From: a virus
Virus record (IMG/VR): IMGVR_UViG_3300021197_001863
Coordinates: 1 to 32,100 of that record
Strand: one strand, 5' to 3'
Length of the DNA stretch: 32,100 nt
Made by a program: the position numbers and the translations under genes. Below the pieces are notes generated by a model that was not told where the DNA came from, made no database searches, and saw only the letters and a list, made by a program, of their open reading frames with translations. Numbering within the stretch: the stretch's first letter is position 1; the number at the start of each line of letters is the position of its first letter. Below, piece after piece: positions 2,660-32,100 of this stretch.

Positions 2660-2976
2660 TGGCGAGTTACGGCAAAGTGAAAGTCAAGAGGAATAACCCA
2701 AGGTTGAACGAGGTGCCAGAAGACTGTGGCTACATGCAACGGTTCGAGCACAACGTCGACATGAACAGCAATGGTGTAATGGCAGAATGCATAGACTGGT
2801 GCCAGGAAAACTGTGAAGGCAAGTGGGGTTGGTGGTTCGAACCCGTAGGAGAAATAGAGAATCCCAAGAGCCATTGGGAACATCAGAACGCATACATGAG
2901 TTTCGAGAAGAAATTGGACGCTACCAGATTCTGGATGAGCGTGGGAATACAGAACAGCAACAGGAGAGAAGTATAA
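2659..2976 (+). CDS. Small protein of unknown function (105 aa)
   Basis: The start is taken at ATG 2659, overlapping the glycosyltransferase stop (TGATG), with GGAAG just upstream. A start at 2623 would overlap the previous gene more deeply. The protein is rich in Trp and acidic residues. DWCQENCEGKWGWWF in the middle and YMSFEKKLDATRFWM near the end suggest a compact domain in which the C-terminal part resembles short phage proteins describing a field of the type F.D..DA..F. It has no membrane segment or signal peptide. I do not know the function. Confidence 0.65.
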   Translation: MASYGKVKVKRNNPRLNEVPEDCGYMQRFEHNVDMNSNGVMAECIDWCQENCEGKWGWWFEPVGEIENPKSHWEHQNAYMSFEKKLDATRFWMSVGIQNSNRREV

Positions 2977-2984
2977 TTACTAGT

Positions 2985-3320
2985 ATGAAACCATTCGAAA
3001 TAACAGACAGTGCAAAGGCACAGATCGAGAGATTGCTGGAGAAGAACACAGGCAAGTACGCAGTCAGCCTGGCGGTGCTAGGCGGAGGCTGTGCAGGATT
3101 CAAGTACGAGTGGGGATTCGCTGAAACCAAAGAAAATGTCGCTGAAGGCGATCACACGGAAGACTGGGGCACGGGCAGGTTCGTGGTTGATGAGACCTCG
3201 TTGTTGTATGTCATGGGCACCAAGATCGACTGGGTGGAGGAAACCTTTGGATCACAATTCGAGATATCCAATCCCAACAGTTCAAGCTCGTGTGGGTGTG
3301 GAGAATCGTTTGGCATATAA
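2985..3320 (+). CDS. A-type iron-sulfur carrier (HesB/IscA family)
   Basis: This 111-residue protein belongs to the IscA/HesB/ErpA family, which binds or transfers Fe-S clusters. All three conserved cysteines are present: C36 in GGGCAGFKY, and C103 and C105 in SSSCGCGESF. The length is typical of the family. The start is ATG 2985, nine bases after the previous stop; an upstream reading-frame extension overlaps the previous gene and is not conserved-looking. Such genes are common in marine T4-like phages and are thought to support Fe-S protein maturation during infection. The partner enzyme is not obvious in this window. Confidence 0.92.
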   Translation: MKPFEITDSAKAQIERLLEKNTGKYAVSLAVLGGGCAGFKYEWGFAETKENVAEGDHTEDWGTGRFVVDETSLLYVMGTKIDWVEETFGSQFEISNPNSSSSCGCGESFGI

Positions 3321-13293: not shown

Positions 13294-13301
13294 TATAAAT
13301 A
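13294..13301 (+). promoter_or_regulatory. T4-type late promoter (TATAAATA, exact)
   Basis: This is a perfect copy of the T4 late consensus, in the 59-base gap after fibre gene C. It is 24 bases before ATG 13326, and the expected leader contains a Shine-Dalgarno-like AAAGGA at 13311-13316. Confidence 0.75.
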
Positions 13302-25694: not shown

Positions 25695-25713
25695 TATAAT
25701 ACACGCACTTATT

Positions 25714-25721
25714 GATAAATA
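25714..25721 (+). promoter_or_regulatory. T4-type late promoter motif (GATAAATA)
   Basis: GATAAATA lies five bases before ATG 25727 of the peptidase gene. No Shine-Dalgarno is present, the same geometry as at 24477. Confidence 0.65.
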
Positions 25722-25726
25722 ATTGT

Positions 25727-26188
25727 ATGAGATTAAGTGCAAACTTCACACTAGCGGAATTCACGAAAAGTCAGACAGCGACACGAAAAGGTCTTGATAA
25801 CACACCAGGCGAAGAACACCTAGCAAACGCAAAAGAATTATTTGCCAACGTGGTGCAAAAGGTCAGAGAGAACTTTGGCGTGACAGTGATCAACTCAGGA
25901 TACAGAGGGCCTGCACTGAACGAAGCAGTAGGTGGTTCAAGTAAATCACAACACTGCAAAGGCGAAGCAGTTGATATAGAATGTCCAGGCACAGGCAACT
26001 ATGATGTGGCCAAATGGATCTCAGAAAACTGTGACTTCGACCAATTGATATTAGAATTCTACACACCAGGCATACCTGACTCGGGTTGGGTACACGTTTC
26101 TTACAAGTCAGAAGGCAACCGAAAAAGCATACTGACTGCCATGAAGGAAAATGGTAAAACTGTTTACAAACCTGGTTTGATCCAATAG
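25727..26188 (+). CDS. M15 (VanY/peptidase M15A-like) peptidase, probable endolysin
   Basis: This 153-residue single-domain zinc peptidase matches peptidase M15A. SGYRGPALNEAVGGSSKSQH ends at H76, D83 is in GEAVDIE and H123 in GWVHVSY; these three are the zinc ligands. M15 phage enzymes cut peptide stems or cross-links of peptidoglycan. It has no signal peptide or holin fusion, so release would need a holin that I do not see in this window. The start is ATG 25727; an in-frame TTG five codons upstream is ignored. Under a late promoter it fits an endolysin; a virion-maturation hydrolase is the alternative. Confidence 0.8.
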   Translation: MRLSANFTLAEFTKSQTATRKGLDNTPGEEHLANAKELFANVVQKVRENFGVTVINSGYRGPALNEAVGGSSKSQHCKGEAVDIECPGTGNYDVAKWISENCDFDQLILEFYTPGIPDSGWVHVSYKSEGNRKSILTAMKENGKTVYKPGLIQ

Positions 26189-26224: not shown

Positions 26225-26746
26225 ATGCATAAAAAAATTAATTTAGATGTAGATTATACACATTTCCTGTCACATGAAATACCTAAAGGGACCACATGTA
26301 TAGCACACCAACTGGTTGAACTCAAAGACATACATGAAAAATTTCCAGGCGGCTTCCCTCAAACATATCAATTAGCCAACACTACCATACATCAGAAGTT
26401 CTGGGATAAGGATGAATGCGATTACGATGAGCTAGGAGAAAAACTAGGTATAGAAGCCGTGACAGTCAGCACCATCATGCAACCTCCAGGTAATGTGATA
26501 CCACTTCACAGAGATACATTCTATAAGATTAAGGTTGCGTATCCTGAAGACAAAAGAACAATAGTGAGATGTAACATATATCTCGAGGATTGGAAAGCAG
26601 GACACTACGTACAGTATCAAGACAACGTAGATATACATTGGACGCAGGGCAGTGGACATATGTGGGACAGTGAAGTATTGCACATAGGTGCCAACGCCGG
26701 CATGGAAAACAAGTACACACTGCAAATCAGTGGTTTCCTAAAATAA
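26225..26746 (+). CDS. 2OG-Fe(II) oxygenase-like protein 1
   Basis: This 173-residue protein has the facial-triad pattern of Fe(II)/2-oxoglutarate oxygenases: H95-R-D97 (VIPLHRDTFY) and H153 (EVLHIGANAG), in a double-stranded beta-helix context (TVSTIMQPPG, RTIVRCNIYLED, YTLQISGF). It resembles aspartyl/asparaginyl hydroxylase-type proteins frequent in marine phages. It is the first gene of the cargo cassette, after a sigma70-type promoter, and ends directly before the next ATG (TAA then ATG). Substrate unknown; it could act on a protein, nucleotide or small molecule. Confidence 0.75.
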   Translation: MHKKINLDVDYTHFLSHEIPKGTTCIAHQLVELKDIHEKFPGGFPQTYQLANTTIHQKFWDKDECDYDELGEKLGIEAVTVSTIMQPPGNVIPLHRDTFYKIKVAYPEDKRTIVRCNIYLEDWKAGHYVQYQDNVDIHWTQGSGHMWDSEVLHIGANAGMENKYTLQISGFLK

Positions 26747-27676
26747 ATGACTACAAGGTATACAGACCTTCCAGACAACAAAGATAAACCGTTCGGAGGA
26801 GCCTACAGTGTGCATGATATAGAAACTTGCCAGACAAGGGATGATGCGGTCAAAGAATACATATCCAATCAATCACTGTTGGACAACGAAGAAATCAAGA
26901 GCAAATATGTGCAGACATATAAAAAATGGATGTTCGCCACACACCCAAAAATCAAAGGGTGGGAGGACTACAACGAACTGTGTTTCACACAAGGCACAAC
27001 AGAATCTTTCGCTCAATTTTACTTGCGTTTCAAGGGCTCTAAAAGGCTAAGATTGGCCAAGGGAGAGTATTTCTACAATCAGATGATGAAAGGACTATGG
27101 TTCAAGGAAAAATTCGCATGGCTTGATGAGGACGAAATTAAACCCAATGACGTTGTGTTAATAAGCACACCGTTTTCCGACACAGGTGCAGTGCCAGACT
27201 ATCTAGAAAAGTTATTAACAGAATGTGATAAAAACAATGTACCGGTCATGCTTGATCTTGCGTATGTAAGTCTATCCGTCGATCAGCAATTGGATCTCTC
27301 ACATCAATGTATCGAATATGTGGTGTCGTCGCTGTCAAAAGTTTTTCCTGTAGAGTTACACAGGATCGGTATACGTATGCAGAGAAAGAAATTTGAAGAT
27401 CAACTGTACGTGATCAATGAAAAAAATTACAATTACATCAACGTTATGAGTGCATACGTAGGAACCAAACTTATGGAAAAATATCCTGCAGATTACATAT
27501 ACAAAAAATATAGACAGGTGCAGTTAGACATGTGTAACAAGTTAAATGTAGAAGCGTCGCCGTGTGTGTACTTTGGCATAGACAAACAGGGACAGTTTCC
27601 GGACTACAATCGTGGAACAGAATCAAATAGACTGTGTTTTTCTAGAGTATGGGACGGGAGAATGAAGGATGAGTGA
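26747..27676 (+). CDS. Divergent PLP aminotransferase-like protein 2 (fold type I)
   Basis: This 309-residue paralogue of the protein at 20368 carries LCFTQGTTESFAQFYLR, an NPTG-equivalent STPFSDTG (140-147), VMLDLAYVS with D170 for the pyridine-N Asp, and SSLSKVFPVELHRIGIR with K198 as likely PLP lysine and R206. The C-terminus includes EKYPADYIYKKYRQ, shared with its paralogue. It is shorter than typical class I enzymes (about 400 residues). In the cassette it could supply an amine for the amidinotransferase two genes downstream. The small size and altered NPTG mean activity is not assured. It overlaps the next gene by eight bases. Confidence 0.65.
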   Translation: MTTRYTDLPDNKDKPFGGAYSVHDIETCQTRDDAVKEYISNQSLLDNEEIKSKYVQTYKKWMFATHPKIKGWEDYNELCFTQGTTESFAQFYLRFKGSKRLRLAKGEYFYNQMMKGLWFKEKFAWLDEDEIKPNDVVLISTPFSDTGAVPDYLEKLLTECDKNNVPVMLDLAYVSLSVDQQLDLSHQCIEYVVSSLSKVFPVELHRIGIRMQRKKFEDQLYVINEKNYNYINVMSAYVGTKLMEKYPADYIYKKYRQVQLDMCNKLNVEASPCVYFGIDKQGQFPDYNRGTESNRLCFSRVWDGRMKDE

Positions 27677-28781
27677 TCCCTACTTTTATGATCAATGGCA
27701 GAACAATACATTAACTTTCAACATAGAAAAATACAATTTTCCACACTTGATCTTAAATGTGATCAAAGAAAAATTTCCTAATGTCTTATCATTAGAAACA
27801 ATTCACCAAGCGGTAGAACCATCACACATATCTGAACTATGTTTGTATGTGCAAAAAGCATTTGGCAGAAAAGAATACATGGTATTGTTCGATCAGTTTG
27901 CAGAAGAATACATAGCACCAAAATTAAAAGGCAGGCATTACTTGATTAAAAGGCAACCAACACTAAATTGTGTTATCCCTAATCAGGTTAAACATGCAAG
28001 AAGGCTTCCGTTCCATCAAGGAATATTTTATAACAACGGTAAAGGAATGGCAACAATGTGGATGCCATTGACCAAAGCATTTGGCACTAATACTATGTAC
28101 ATTGCCAACTTAGAAGACAGTAGAAATTTAACAAAAGAAGTAATAGACCAAAAATTAAGCCTAGACAAGTTTGAAGAAAAGTGCCTACAGATATGTAGCC
28201 CTGTTGAAAAATCACCAGGCGAGGTGCACCTTTTCACACAAGAGCATATACACGGCAATCTGAACAATGAGACTGGAGTCACACGATGTGCAATAGATTG
28301 GCATGTGCTTCCAGAAGGTGAGGAATACAATGGACGAGAGCCCGGAGGCTTTTTCCGATTGCCTGGAGATCATGAGCAATCTGACCATACAGATTATACA
28401 GGAAAAACTTTTATCTCGTATGTTGGAAATAATAGTAGGTATGATAAAAAAATTCCTATACATTTCCAACGTAAAGTAATCGACGAATACTGCAAAAGTA
28501 AAGGCATTGTTAACAGCGGTGTCCAATTCGAAAATGAATTTTTAGTCTGGCTACCTATACTAGAACACTATATCCAACAAAGAATACACGGAATTGTTAT
28601 GTTAAGCATACACAGTCTACCAAACGATAAAGCAAGGACCAACGAGCTATTGCACATGGCAATAGAAAACAATGTACAGTTACATTTTGCCAATGAGTTC
28701 TGTACACTCAAAGCACAGGAGGACCTAGACCGCATACAAACTTACTTGTCCTTTTCTCCTACTAAAGAAGGAACACAATGA
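27669..28781 (+). CDS. 2OG oxygenase (HxG variant) fused to sporadic carbohydrate cluster (LIC12192-like) domain
   Basis: This 370-residue two-domain protein joins families I recall as TIGR04324 and TIGR04323. Residues about 1-235 resemble the sporadic-carbohydrate-cluster 2OG-Fe(II) oxygenase: RLPFHQGIFYNN, then MWMPLTKAFGTNTMYI, then IHGNLNNETGVTRCAIDW (H195, R206). The iron site reads H116-Q-G118 where HxD is expected, as in Fe/2OG halogenases. Residues about 246-364 resemble the LIC12192-type domain (FISYVGNNSRYDKKIPIHFQ, then IHGIVMLSIHSLPNDKARTN, then LHFANE). In bacteria these two families are usually separate neighbouring genes in surface-polysaccharide clusters. The gene is AT-rich by eye. 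It overlaps the amidinotransferase by four bases. Substrate unknown. Confidence 0.65.
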   Translation: MSDPYFYDQWQNNTLTFNIEKYNFPHLILNVIKEKFPNVLSLETIHQAVEPSHISELCLYVQKAFGRKEYMVLFDQFAEEYIAPKLKGRHYLIKRQPTLNCVIPNQVKHARRLPFHQGIFYNNGKGMATMWMPLTKAFGTNTMYIANLEDSRNLTKEVIDQKLSLDKFEEKCLQICSPVEKSPGEVHLFTQEHIHGNLNNETGVTRCAIDWHVLPEGEEYNGREPGGFFRLPGDHEQSDHTDYTGKTFISYVGNNSRYDKKIPIHFQRKVIDEYCKSKGIVNSGVQFENEFLVWLPILEHYIQQRIHGIVMLSIHSLPNDKARTNELLHMAIENNVQLHFANEFCTLKAQEDLDRIQTYLSFSPTKEGTQ

Positions 28782-29839
28782 AAAGTATAGTATCAAGTCA
28801 TAATGACTGGGATCCTCTTGAAGAATGTTTTGTAGGTACGGCTACCCACGCTAGGTTTCCAACACTGGATCGCAGTACACATTCGTTTTGCTTCACTACA
28901 GAAAAGTATGACGACATATCTGGTATAGAAGGACCAGTTGATGAAAAAATAATCAACGAGTCCAACGAGGATCTCGACAAACTTGCTGAAACATTAACAG
29001 GACTGGGCGTTAAGGTTAGGCGTCCTACTGCTCAAGATCATTCAAAAATCTTTAGTACACCGGAGTGGACAACAACAGGATACCAGACATATTCCTGTAG
29101 AGATCTACTATTGCCCCTGGACAATCTCATAATAGACTGTGCATCACCATTGAGAAGTAGATATTTTGAAACACGGGCATACCGGGAATTTTTATACGAA
29201 GTCATGCACAATGGCACAGAGTGGGTATCGGCACCCAAACCTATACTACCTGATGAGATATATCAAGTAGAAAATCTAGGAGACCCGTCGACTCGTAATC
29301 TTGAAATAGTGTTTGACTCTCCAAACGTGGTGAGGCTAGGCAATGACTTGTTGTTCCAGGTCAGTAACTCCGGCACAGAACTAGGTGCACAATGGTTGAA
29401 AACAATACTAGAACCAAGAGGTTACAGAATACACATGGCAGATAAGTTTTATGCATTCGCTCATTTCGATAGCACAGTTCTACCGTTACGTCCTGGACTG
29501 GTACTGTTCAATGGTGACCGATTGAATCCAGACAGGTATCCAAAGATATTTGATAAATGGGATAAGATATTTTTCCCAGGAGACAAAATTGTTGACGTAG
29601 GTTGTGCATTACCTAACGGAGTCACAACCACTTCACCTTACATAGGACTGAATTTTTTCAGCGTCAATGAGAACTTGGTTGTCTGTGATAAGAATCAAAC
29701 ACACCTTCGTAGAGAACTAGATAAGCACGGTATAGAAAGTATAGGTCTCGAGATGAGGCATGCTAGAGCAATGGCCGGAGGCTTCCATTGTGTGACACTA
29801 GACACCAAACGTAAAGGATCTCGTCAGGATTATTTCTAA
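28778..29839 (+). CDS. Amidinotransferase (AGAT/StrB-like)
   Basis: This 353-residue protein belongs to the guanidino-group-modifying (AGAT/arginine deiminase) superfamily. It transfers or hydrolyses the amidino group of arginine through a Cys. The triad is intact: D180 in VFDSPNVVRLGND, H229 in FAHFDSTVLPLRPG, and C338 in GGFHCVTLDTKRKG. The 49-residue spacing between Asp and His equals that of human AGAT as I recall it. LLFQVSNSGTELGAQWL and GLNFFSVNENLVV also match AGAT landmarks. The Shine-Dalgarno AAGAAGGA precedes the start. It ends the cassette, three bases from the convergent gene. The amine acceptor is unknown: an amino sugar, amino acid or nucleobase are all possible. Confidence 0.85.
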   Translation: MKSIVSSHNDWDPLEECFVGTATHARFPTLDRSTHSFCFTTEKYDDISGIEGPVDEKIINESNEDLDKLAETLTGLGVKVRRPTAQDHSKIFSTPEWTTTGYQTYSCRDLLLPLDNLIIDCASPLRSRYFETRAYREFLYEVMHNGTEWVSAPKPILPDEIYQVENLGDPSTRNLEIVFDSPNVVRLGNDLLFQVSNSGTELGAQWLKTILEPRGYRIHMADKFYAFAHFDSTVLPLRPGLVLFNGDRLNPDRYPKIFDKWDKIFFPGDKIVDVGCALPNGVTTTSPYIGLNFFSVNENLVVCDKNQTHLRRELDKHGIESIGLEMRHARAMAGGFHCVTLDTKRKGSRQDYF

Positions 29840-29842
29840 TCC

Positions 29843-30955
29843 TTATTTTAGATTTTGGAATTCCGTAGGCAACTCGTCTATCTGCCTGACTATTTCACTA
29901 GAAATATCATTATGTAGATTTTTAGCCAGTTGGAAATTATGAAAAGTATCCTCTCCCTGTAGGTCCTGCCAGGATTGTGCCCAATCCTTGTTCTTTGTCA
30001 TTTGGGAGTAGAATAGTATCTCTCGACAGTATCTCTTTACAACATCCTGCAGTGACTCATTAGGTCTCCTGTTCATATTATTTTTGAAACGGAATCCCCA
30101 TTCTTTCATTTGTTGTGCTTCGGCATCTGCCCATATGGGCAACACAGGAGCAGTCGAAGTAAAACATTGGAGATGCTTCTCCGCGATGCCCCAGTGTACA
30201 TAATGATCATAAAAAACGTCTCGATCCATTGCCACAAAAAAATGACATTTGTTAAGACATTTGTTTAGGATGGATAGATTACGTTTATGATCAAACCTTA
30301 CATACTCTCCGCTGAGGTGACCTTGGTTCAAATCTTTTATGACCCTGTTTATACCAAGTGCATCATCTGGGTATGTTCTATCATTGGCTTTGATTTCGGG
30401 CATACCATACAAAGCGTTATCCAGAGCTCCAAGCTCTTTCAACATCATCAGTAAATGTGGCCCTGGGCCAATAGGATTGCTGGCCATGATCATGAATGAG
30501 TGTTCCATGTCATCGACCTTTCTGTGAAAGACCGGCGCTACTCCGCTCTCACTGAACATCTTGGAATATTGGTAGGCCATTGAATGTGTGTGTATGACTC
30601 TGACATTGTCGGGTACCGGCACCACTGATCTTATTTTTTCAAATGTCACTATCAAACGTGGTTTGCCTGTACGAACACAGGCTTGGTATAATTGTTCTAT
30701 ATGGCTGTCTAGAGATCCAGGCCCTAAATAGATGACAGGATTGCTCTCTACTGTATCATTTAATACATCTTTGTTCCAAATATACCAAAGCAAACTACTT
30801 GTGGGGGTTAAAAGGGGTCTGGCACCAAATCTAGCGTTGATAAACGGTACCGGATTGGCCCACTTAGGATTAATGTTATCCCATTCTGTTTCCCAAGGTC
30901 TCACTTCGAAGGGTTTTTCAAGCCTTTCTACTGCAATATTATTAGGAATGTTCAT
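29843..30955 (-). CDS. Glycosyltransferase-like protein of unknown function (370 aa)
   Basis: This minus-strand gene is convergent with the amidinotransferase. The start is ATG 30955 (a TTG one codon before is ignored). The N-terminal half has a Rossmann-like stretch (VIYLGPGSLDSHIEQLY, then KPRLIVTFEKIRSVV). The C-terminal segment DVFYDHYVHWGIAEKHLQCF leading to PVLPIWADAEAQQM resembles the D...TEK...F..P motif and following GF of GT10/fucosyltransferase-like phage proteins. That resemblance is weak. It could be the transferase that uses a product of the cassette on the opposite strand; no evidence beyond position. It is read divergently from the spanin gene (33 bases apart). Confidence 0.55.
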   Translation of the reverse strand: MNIPNNIAVERLEKPFEVRPWETEWDNINPKWANPVPFINARFGARPLLTPTSSLLWYIWNKDVLNDTVESNPVIYLGPGSLDSHIEQLYQACVRTGKPRLIVTFEKIRSVVPVPDNVRVIHTHSMAYQYSKMFSESGVAPVFHRKVDDMEHSFMIMASNPIGPGPHLLMMLKELGALDNALYGMPEIKANDRTYPDDALGINRVIKDLNQGHLSGEYVRFDHKRNLSILNKCLNKCHFFVAMDRDVFYDHYVHWGIAEKHLQCFTSTAPVLPIWADAEAQQMKEWGFRFKNNMNRRPNESLQDVVKRYCREILFYSQMTKNKDWAQSWQDLQGEDTFHNFQLAKNLHNDISSEIVRQIDELPTEFQNLK

Positions 30956-30972
30956 CAAGCGTAATTATCATC

Positions 30973-30988: not shown

Positions 30989-31462
30989 ATGTTTTCAACA
31001 ATAAAAATGGCGATCGCAATTATGTTAATCACCGGCATAGCGGGTGCGGGTGTGTACGTGATGAAACTACGGGCGGACAACGCCACACTGAAAGCCAACC
31101 AAATAGAATTAGAGAAAGGCATTGAAGCACAGACAAAGTTAATAGAACAACAGAAAGTGGACTTCGAGGCCATAATGGAGAGCAACAAGAAACTTAACAC
31201 TCTAGTGATGACTTTCAAGAAAGACCTAGACGAGTTGGACAAGCGTTTCAACAAGAAGAAAAGAGACGTTGGTAAATTGGCCATAGAAAGATCCAAATCC
31301 GTTGAACGTGTGATAAACAAAGGTTCGGCTGAAGCAACTAGATGTGTGGAACTGGCCAGTGGCGCAGAAAGAACAGAAGCAGAAATCAAAGCAACAAAGA
31401 AATCGGAGATAAACACGATGTGCCCAAGCCTGGCAAATCCTAATTTTGTACCTTATGAATAA
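30989..31462 (+). CDS. Inner spanin-like (Rz-like) protein
   Basis: This 157-residue protein has one N-terminal transmembrane segment (about residues 5-25, MAIAIMLITGIAGAGVYVM) and then a long Lys/Glu-rich coiled coil (about 28-110, e.g. LEKGIEAQTKLIEQQKVDFE). Topology and length match Rz i-spanins, which with an outer-membrane lipoprotein breach the outer membrane in the last lysis step. A lipoprotein gene overlaps its end by eight bases, as in Rz/Rz1. The cysteines near the C-terminus (ATRCVELAS, INTMCPS) could form disulfides. Late promoter upstream. An unrelated membrane coiled-coil protein is the alternative. Confidence 0.65.
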   Translation: MFSTIKMAIAIMLITGIAGAGVYVMKLRADNATLKANQIELEKGIEAQTKLIEQQKVDFEAIMESNKKLNTLVMTFKKDLDELDKRFNKKKRDVGKLAIERSKSVERVINKGSAEATRCVELASGAERTEAEIKATKKSEINTMCPSLANPNFVPYE

Positions 31463-31817
31463 AATTTTAGCAGTAGCATTGATATTATTACTCACAGGAT
31501 GTAGCATAGGCGGAGAGAAGAGGATCAAACTGTTTGCGGTTGAAGAGCCAAGACAGAAGTTGAACCTACCAGATCCAATGCCATTGACACTGGAAGACAT
31601 CCGTTGGATAATAATCACAAGTGAGAACGCACAAGAGGTTTTCAAGAAGTTGGAAGAGCAGGGAATAGACCCTGTGTTGTTTGGATTGACTGACAAGGAC
31701 TACGAGATGTTGGCCAAGAACTTCGCACAGATAAGACAGAAATTACAGGAAACAAATAGTCTCCTGGAAGAGTACAAGAAATATTACGAGGGAGAAGAGA
31801 ATGCAGACAGTAATTAA
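31455..31817 (+). CDS. Lipoprotein, probable outer spanin (Rz1-like)
   Basis: The start is ATG 31455, inside the end of the inner-spanin-like gene. A lipoprotein signal is clear: MNKILAVALILLLTGCS with lipobox L13-T14-G15-C16. Residues 16-60 are extended, and residues about 85-115 form a charged helix (AQIRQKLQETNSLLEEYKKY). Lipobox, size and partial overlap with a membrane coiled-coil gene fit an o-spanin, although at 120 residues it is longer than classical Rz1 and less proline-rich. Secretion of an ordinary lipoprotein is the alternative. It overlaps the ACP gene by 17 bases. Confidence 0.65.
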   Translation: MNKILAVALILLLTGCSIGGEKRIKLFAVEEPRQKLNLPDPMPLTLEDIRWIIITSENAQEVFKKLEEQGIDPVLFGLTDKDYEMLAKNFAQIRQKLQETNSLLEEYKKYYEGEENADSN

Positions 31818-32019
31818 AGTAATAGCAGAACATCTAGATGTTGCAGAGAGCAAGGTTACACCAGAAGCACACCTAGTTGATGATCTAGGTGCAGATCCAT
31901 TTGACACAATAGAACTAGTGATACAAGTGGAAAAAGCGACAGGTGTAAAAATATCAGAGGACGACGGTGACAAAGTCCAAACAGTACAGGATCTAATCAA
32001 CCTAGTGGAGAAAAAATAA
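31801..32019 (+). CDS. Acyl carrier protein homologue with Pro at the Ser attachment site
   Basis: This 72-residue protein is clearly ACP-like: VIAEHLDVAESKVTPEAHLV, then DDLGADPFDTIELVIQVEKA, acidic and four-helical in pattern. The conserved DSL motif, whose serine carries phosphopantetheine, reads D32-P33-F34. The serine codon is CCA, one base from TCA. The rest of the fold is well kept and the frame is open, so it is not decaying. It cannot be acylated in the normal way. It could act as an ACP mimic for host partners, a decoy, or a structural subunit. Its start lies in the preceding gene, with GGGAG just upstream. Confidence 0.85.
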   Translation: MQTVIKVIAEHLDVAESKVTPEAHLVDDLGADPFDTIELVIQVEKATGVKISEDDGDKVQTVQDLINLVEKK

Positions 32020-32100
32020 TGTGGACGTACAGATGTAAATTGAGAAGAGTGGTAGATGGAGACACGGTGGACGTGGACATCGACCTAGGCTTTGGCATAT
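32019..32100 (+). CDS. Staphylococcal nuclease (SNase)-like protein, 5' end only
   Basis: The frame opens at ATG 32019, overlapping the ACP stop by one base (TAATG), and runs off the window after 27 residues. YRCKLRRVVDGDTVDVDIDL is the N-terminal hallmark of SNase/thermonuclease domains, where VxDGDTxxV forms the calcium-binding and nucleotide loop. It would cleave DNA or RNA. The catalytic arginines are beyond the edge. Confidence 0.8.
   Translation, partial: MWTYRCKLRRVVDGDTVDVDIDLGFGI

Follow-up and report, generated by a model that had tools for sequence, protein, structure and literature searches.

An acyl carrier protein gene at the end of a phage record

The window analyzed in this study is an entire virus record of 32.1 kb, whose last genes comprise two spanin genes, a gene for a small acyl carrier protein (ACP), and the start of a nuclease gene (Table 1). 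The ACP open reading frame runs from an ATG start codon at 31801 to a TAA stop codon at 32017–32019, contains DDLGADPFDTIEL, and is translated in full as MQTVIKVIAEHLDVAESKVTPEAHLVDDLGADPFDTIELVIQVEKATGVKISEDDGDKVQTVQDLINLVEKK. Downstream, the nuclease gene is of the SNase type; its positional counterpart on contig L002 matches PF00565 (4e-13). The clamp loader of the window (phrog_168, 2.1e-78) has its nearest cultured relatives among PA5oct-like phages (54% identity), which places the window phage among the T4-like phages.

Table 1. Features at and around the ACP gene of the window.
Feature	Position	Strand	Evidence
M15 peptidase; probable lysis-cassette endolysin	25712..26188	+	PF08291, 1e-19
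Rz-like inner-membrane spanin	30989..31462	+	phrog_739, 8.8e-12
Rz1-like outer-membrane spanin lipoprotein; overlaps the ACP start by 17 bases	31455..31817	+	phrog_812, 1.7e-8
Ser-less ACP, 72 aa, predicted pI ~4.4	31801..32019	+	profiles, AlphaFold model
D32-P33-F34-D35-T36-I37-E38, start of the recognition helix; D32, F34, D35, and E38 invariant across the family	31894..31914	+	
CCA codon for Pro33, at the position where 4'-phosphopantetheine attaches in ACPs (Ser36 in E. coli); helix II of the model begins here	31897..31899	+	
SNase-type nuclease, gene start; overlaps the ACP stop (TAATG) and is truncated where the record stops	32019..32100	+	sequence

ACPs are among the most conserved carriers in biology and are defined by one serine. 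At this site, the initial annotation of the window had read D-P-F instead of D-S-L with a CCA codon, and the reading is exact. The protein nevertheless passed Pfam PF00550, the phosphopantetheine-attachment domain (E 6.5e-10; 39.6 bits against a cut-off of 20.8), and the NCBIfam subfamily model NF002148 (75 bits against a cut-off of 71), and it matched PHROG 5934, “acyl carrier protein” (8.6e-14), but it missed the equivalog cut-off of TIGR00517 (68.6 versus 70.45 bits). Among solved structures, it is closest to bona fide ACPs (Aquifex 2ehs, E 1.6e-16), while all matches among 50,697 GenBank phage records stayed below 60% identity, so that no close relative was found there. By fold and profile, the protein belongs to the ACP superfamily; since the defining serine was tested and is missing, we advise against annotating it as a carrier.

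A phage family without constraint at the carrier serine

Related proteins were collected by alignment and pattern scans of IMG/VR, which resulted in a family of 44 members with distinct DNA that fall into 3 clades; a later scan brought more clade C contigs with the same residues at the site. The family forms one side of a branch with an SH-aLRT value of 93 when columns 33–34 are removed, and is characterized by phenylalanine after the site. The phosphopantetheine serine is missing in 40 of the 44 sequences, with the site occupied by E (12), P (11), D (11), S (4), V (3), A (1), N (1), or I (1). At this position, P, A, or S occurs in clade A, to which the window belongs; members of clade B show D, E, V, I, N, or P, and those of clade C only D or E. 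Serine is thus present in 4 members of clade A (L011, L012, L015, and L018) and in none of clades B and C. Proline is encoded by CCA, CCG, or CCT in L001–L010 and L016, and is also found in L065–L067. A sequencing or assembly error or a private mutation, for which the initial annotation had allowed in case of serine-bearing relatives, has a negligible probability and is refuted by the relatives: Pro recurs in 11 distinct sequences from many contigs, and 7 other residues occupy the site across the 44 sequences. The 4 serine-bearing relatives do exist, but the other 40 vary at the site without constraint across whole clades.

The serine site ranked first in variability among the 72 columns of the alignment (2.46 bits; 44 family sequences) and underwent at least 15 amino acid changes on the tree compared to a column median of 2, using a codon tree built without that codon. 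Because one collecting pattern had fixed D32, F34, D35, and E38 and might have introduced bias, we repeated the count on clades A and B alone, which had been gathered with other peptides as well and without fixing positions 32–38. In these sequences, the site again ranked first of 72 columns (2.42 bits, 9 steps), and L25, L29, D32, F34, D35, E38, and E44 were invariant in 25 of 25, so the result held in this set. Clade C alone shows an alternation of D and E, and the site ranks 11th. The acidic recognition helix II with the equivalents of E. coli D35, D38, and E41 is kept in all 44 sequences (25/25 in the unbiased set). Gene-wide dN/dS ratios with the site codon left out amount to 0.067, 0.208, and 0.244 for clades A, B, and C, respectively; these low values together with the variable serine site indicate that the protein is under selection and the serine is not. 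Low dN/dS and open reading frames also rule out a pseudogene. Judged from the alignments, the whole family has lost constraint at the carrier-serine site.

Other ACPs and carrier enzymes in phages

Comparison with other phage ACPs gave a different picture, since all 8 examples from GenBank retain serine in a D-S-L or D-S-F context (one has DSF). Similarly, an IMG/VR pattern allowing Ser, Thr, Cys, Trp, or Arg at the site returned, among the matches listed, 118 confirmed ACPs outside the family, of which 118 have D-S-L and none has phenylalanine at +1. The matching non-Ser pattern found 61 stretches in total that mostly belong to the F-type family described here, plus 12 separate ACPs of D/E/Q/A/V-L type. 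These 12 proteins from viral contigs (L282, L283, and L286–L295) have leucine at +1 (DEL, DDL, DQL, DVL, and DAL) and are scattered on a poorly resolved tree with 7 label changes. From these placements, it seems that loss of the serine in viral ACPs happened more than once and in several lineages.

On cellular contigs, the non-Ser pattern gave, among the matches listed, mostly chance hits plus a few true Ser-less ACP-like domains (L156 and L188 from Verrucomicrobiaceae MAGs as well as L157, L187, L131, and L183). The 2 Verrucomicrobiaceae MAGs share a 347-aa open frame with a Ser-less ACP-like domain.

The 34 phage records that we searched encode exactly one ACP each. They contain no second, normal ACP, no phosphopantetheinyl transferase/holo-ACP synthase (AcpS; PF01648 matched in 0/34 records, with controls positive in 10 of 14), and no ketoacyl synthase (KAS), again with positive controls; all of these records are fragments, so that such absences are no proof for full genomes. 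The Ser-bearing family members also come without AcpS in their records. Overall, gp23, considered as a guide to the host, is present in 2 records only. With the serine missing in 40 of 44 sequences and neither AcpS nor another ACP in these records, the earlier statement that the protein cannot be a normal carrier has held up, and we consider it very likely that the window ACP family is not a carrier.

Genome neighborhood

In the window and most T4-like contigs of clade A, the ACP gene lies at the spanin genes (phrog_739 and phrog_812). Clade C contigs have it between the endolysin gene and the spanin genes, followed downstream by genes for DnaJ, peptide deformylase, and a Clp ATPase as annotated on L065 of clade A. 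The clade C-type endolysin is of the GH108 type in its homologue from L065. This cluster of DnaJ, peptide deformylase, and Clp ATPase downstream of the lysis cassette (L065 3978–6208 and equivalents) is shared by clades A and C. Two clade A contigs and clade B have the ACP gene beside tail or head genes: In L014, it is flanked on one side by a tail tube protein gene and on the other, at a distance of one gene, by a head closure gene, and in clade B, it separates a virion structural gene (phrog_11591, 3.7e-92) from the gene of the tail sheath stabilizer gp15 (PF16724, 2.2e-27), with start and stop codons that abut the neighbors and a NUDIX gene after gp15. The same two neighbors overlap directly in PA5oct, where there is no ACP and the structural protein is 37% identical, and an annotated lysin occupies this place in Atu_ph07 and Phosso. 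The junction of structural gene and gp15 is therefore an insertion slot that is empty in PA5oct, holds a lysin in Atu_ph07/Phosso, and holds the Ser-less ACP in clade B (L416–L418 versus L038). Taken together, these contexts indicate that the ACP is an added gene favoring lysis-linked places.

No canonical T4 late promoter was found near the ACP gene, as the sole TATAAATA of the window is located at 13294. Several non-lysis genes separate the M15 endolysin from the spanins (26225–30958), among them an amidinotransferase-like gene (28778–29839) with relatives in Campylobacter phages and S-SCSM2R. The window further encodes an A-type iron-sulfur carrier-like gene (2823–3320; PF01521, 7.7e-14).

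Fold and recognition surface

AlphaFold2 run on a 34-row alignment predicted the window ACP as the four-helix ACP bundle with a pLDDT of 93.2 and helices at residues 2–12, 33–47, 53–57, and 62–70. A Foldseek search with this model found ACPs at a TM of up to 0.95 and 0.8–0.9 Å, and many of these structures come from complexes that include a partner enzyme, e.g., FabZ, FabF, and Nfs1-ISD11. The start of a helix is a position that generally suits Glu, Asp, Pro, Ser, and Ala. In the predicted structure, the residues found at the site look like such helix-start tolerance once selection for attachment is gone. The residues D35, D38, and E41 of E. coli ACP, which correspond to D32, D35, and E38 of the window protein, are used by ACP partners (PMC13343975, PMC3340395).

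An apo-ACP that may act on host lipid enzymes

We propose that the family has given up carrier function and that the ACP is retained for its shape. The protein, which cannot accept phosphopantetheine, would be made late, together with lysis or virion genes, and, as a permanent apo-ACP, would offer the standard ACP recognition helix to ACP-binding proteins. The likeliest targets would be host enzymes of phospholipid or lipid A synthesis that use acyl-ACP or, alternatively, some other ACP partner for which the arm is dispensable, and competition with host ACP could then shut down or redirect envelope lipid synthesis around lysis. This proposal draws on the predicted fold, the unconstrained serine site, the acidic face of helix II that is kept, purifying selection, the lack of AcpS and KAS in the records, and the lysis/tail neighborhood, from which we infer that the protein works by contact with other proteins and not in lipid production. 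We assign a probability of about 50% to the reading as a non-carrier ACP that acts by protein binding as a decoy for host ACP-binding lipid enzymes around lysis.

Previous work provides precedents for arm-independent effects of ACPs. Glycerol-3-phosphate acyltransferase was reported to be inhibited more strongly by the apo form of ACP, which can bring growth to a halt (PMC3896788), and apo- and holo-AcpP have the same stimulating effect on MukB (PMC8602292). The mitochondrial ACP (mACP) of Plasmodium, which has no such serine, is nevertheless essential and partners with Isd11-Nfs1 (PMC8547962). Points against a decoy are the 4 clade A members that keep Ser, the tail or head genes beside the ACP gene in clade B and 2 clade A contigs, which would also suit a structural role, and the lack of a canonical T4 late promoter nearby; moreover, changes of M44 to I, F50 to T or L, and (in part) E48 to K compared to AcpP may weaken FAS binding. 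The idea of an apo-mimic raised in the initial annotation is partly supported, as it fits the ACP fold, the invariant D32/D35/E38, and the free serine site, but its stringent-response version is unlikely because apo-ACP is stated in a review not to bind SpoT. IscS is an unlikely target as well, despite the A-type Fe-S carrier gene of the window, because S36T in E. coli ACP abolishes IscS binding (PMC13343975).

After the decoy of host lipid enzymes, we favor a role without any host target, in line with the subunit mentioned in the initial annotation, in which the ACP is a small acidic subunit of a phage-made complex and its fold serves as docking module on a tail, neck, or lysis protein, though we consider this rather unlikely. 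It would fit the clade B gene wedged with abutting codons between virion structural protein and gp15, the proximity of the L014 ACP to tail tube protein and head closure, the clade C position between endolysin and spanins, and the tail or head genes beside clade B and 2 clade A contigs. However, neighbors vary by clade (lysis, neck, or tail tube) so that no single constant phage partner is adjacent, the neck genes of PA5oct without ACP indicate that the neck does not need one, and the conserved face is the face used for host enzymes.

Third in our order, and improbable, is an unmodifiable substrate that blocks host holo-ACP synthase and thereby starves host ACP of its arm. The substrate of AcpS is apo-ACP, and the family has kept acids of the D35/D38 type while replacing Ser with unmodifiable residues, but holo-ACP is abundant and probably long-lived, which would make a late AcpS block slow, and the residue after the site is Phe and not the usual Leu. 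Even less credit goes to the view that Ser-bearing members are working carriers and Ser-less ones recent losses on the way to decay. This view could account for the serine of the 4 clade A members, but Ser is found nowhere in clades B and C, Ser-less lineages keep open frames and low dN/dS, the Ser-bearing members lack AcpS in their records, and their Phe at +1 has a counterpart in the one GenBank DSF but in none of the 118 non-family Ser-bearing viral ACPs (among the matches listed).

A broader extension of the decoy reading, which we regard as tentative and somewhat doubtful, is that phages repeatedly made the host ACP an unmodifiable decoy that hijacks host enzymes binding ACP and thereby stops envelope lipid synthesis at lysis, in a large T4-like family and in the separate DDL, DEL, DQL, DVL, and DAL lineages. 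If true, repeated ACP decoys would be a host-takeover strategy not described before. A viral family under selection in which the serine is the least conserved residue would be a case of natural evolution separating the “arm” of ACP from its “surface”. Such proteins could be tools for finding host processes that depend only on the surface of ACP and might perhaps inhibit lipid synthesis in bacteria by nature, and phage ACPs annotated as “auxiliary metabolic genes” may be non-metabolic.

Comparison with known ACPs

No reports of Ser-less phage ACPs were found in the open-access literature. The window protein resembles bacterial AcpP (PF00550; NF002148, TIGR00517) in fold (TM 0.95), length, acidity, the DxLGAD-x-[FL]D motif, and the equivalents of D35/D38/E41, but differs from it by belonging to a phage family without the phosphopantetheine serine in 40 of 44 members, by Phe instead of Leu at +1, and by a score below the TIGR00517 cut-off. 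ACP genes are also carried by Brevundimonas phage Bajun, Xanthomonas phage XbC2, Olleya phage Harreka_1, and other GenBank phages, and the ACP of XbC2 is located two genes from an O-spanin, comparable to the spanin-side ACP of the window; unlike the window ACP, all 8 that we examined have D-S-L or D-S-F, with 46–47% identity at most. Two co-isolated cyanophages encode ACP together with ACPS (PMC3037559) and thus are similar in being T4-like marine phages with an ACP, but their own ACP synthase makes a working carrier likely there, while none was found in the 34 records studied here. The ACP of Plasmodium falciparum mitochondria has likewise been retained for binding to a protein partner despite loss of the Ppant serine (PMC8547962); that eukaryotic protein binds Isd11-Nfs1, whereas the phage family arose separately and is highly variable at the site.
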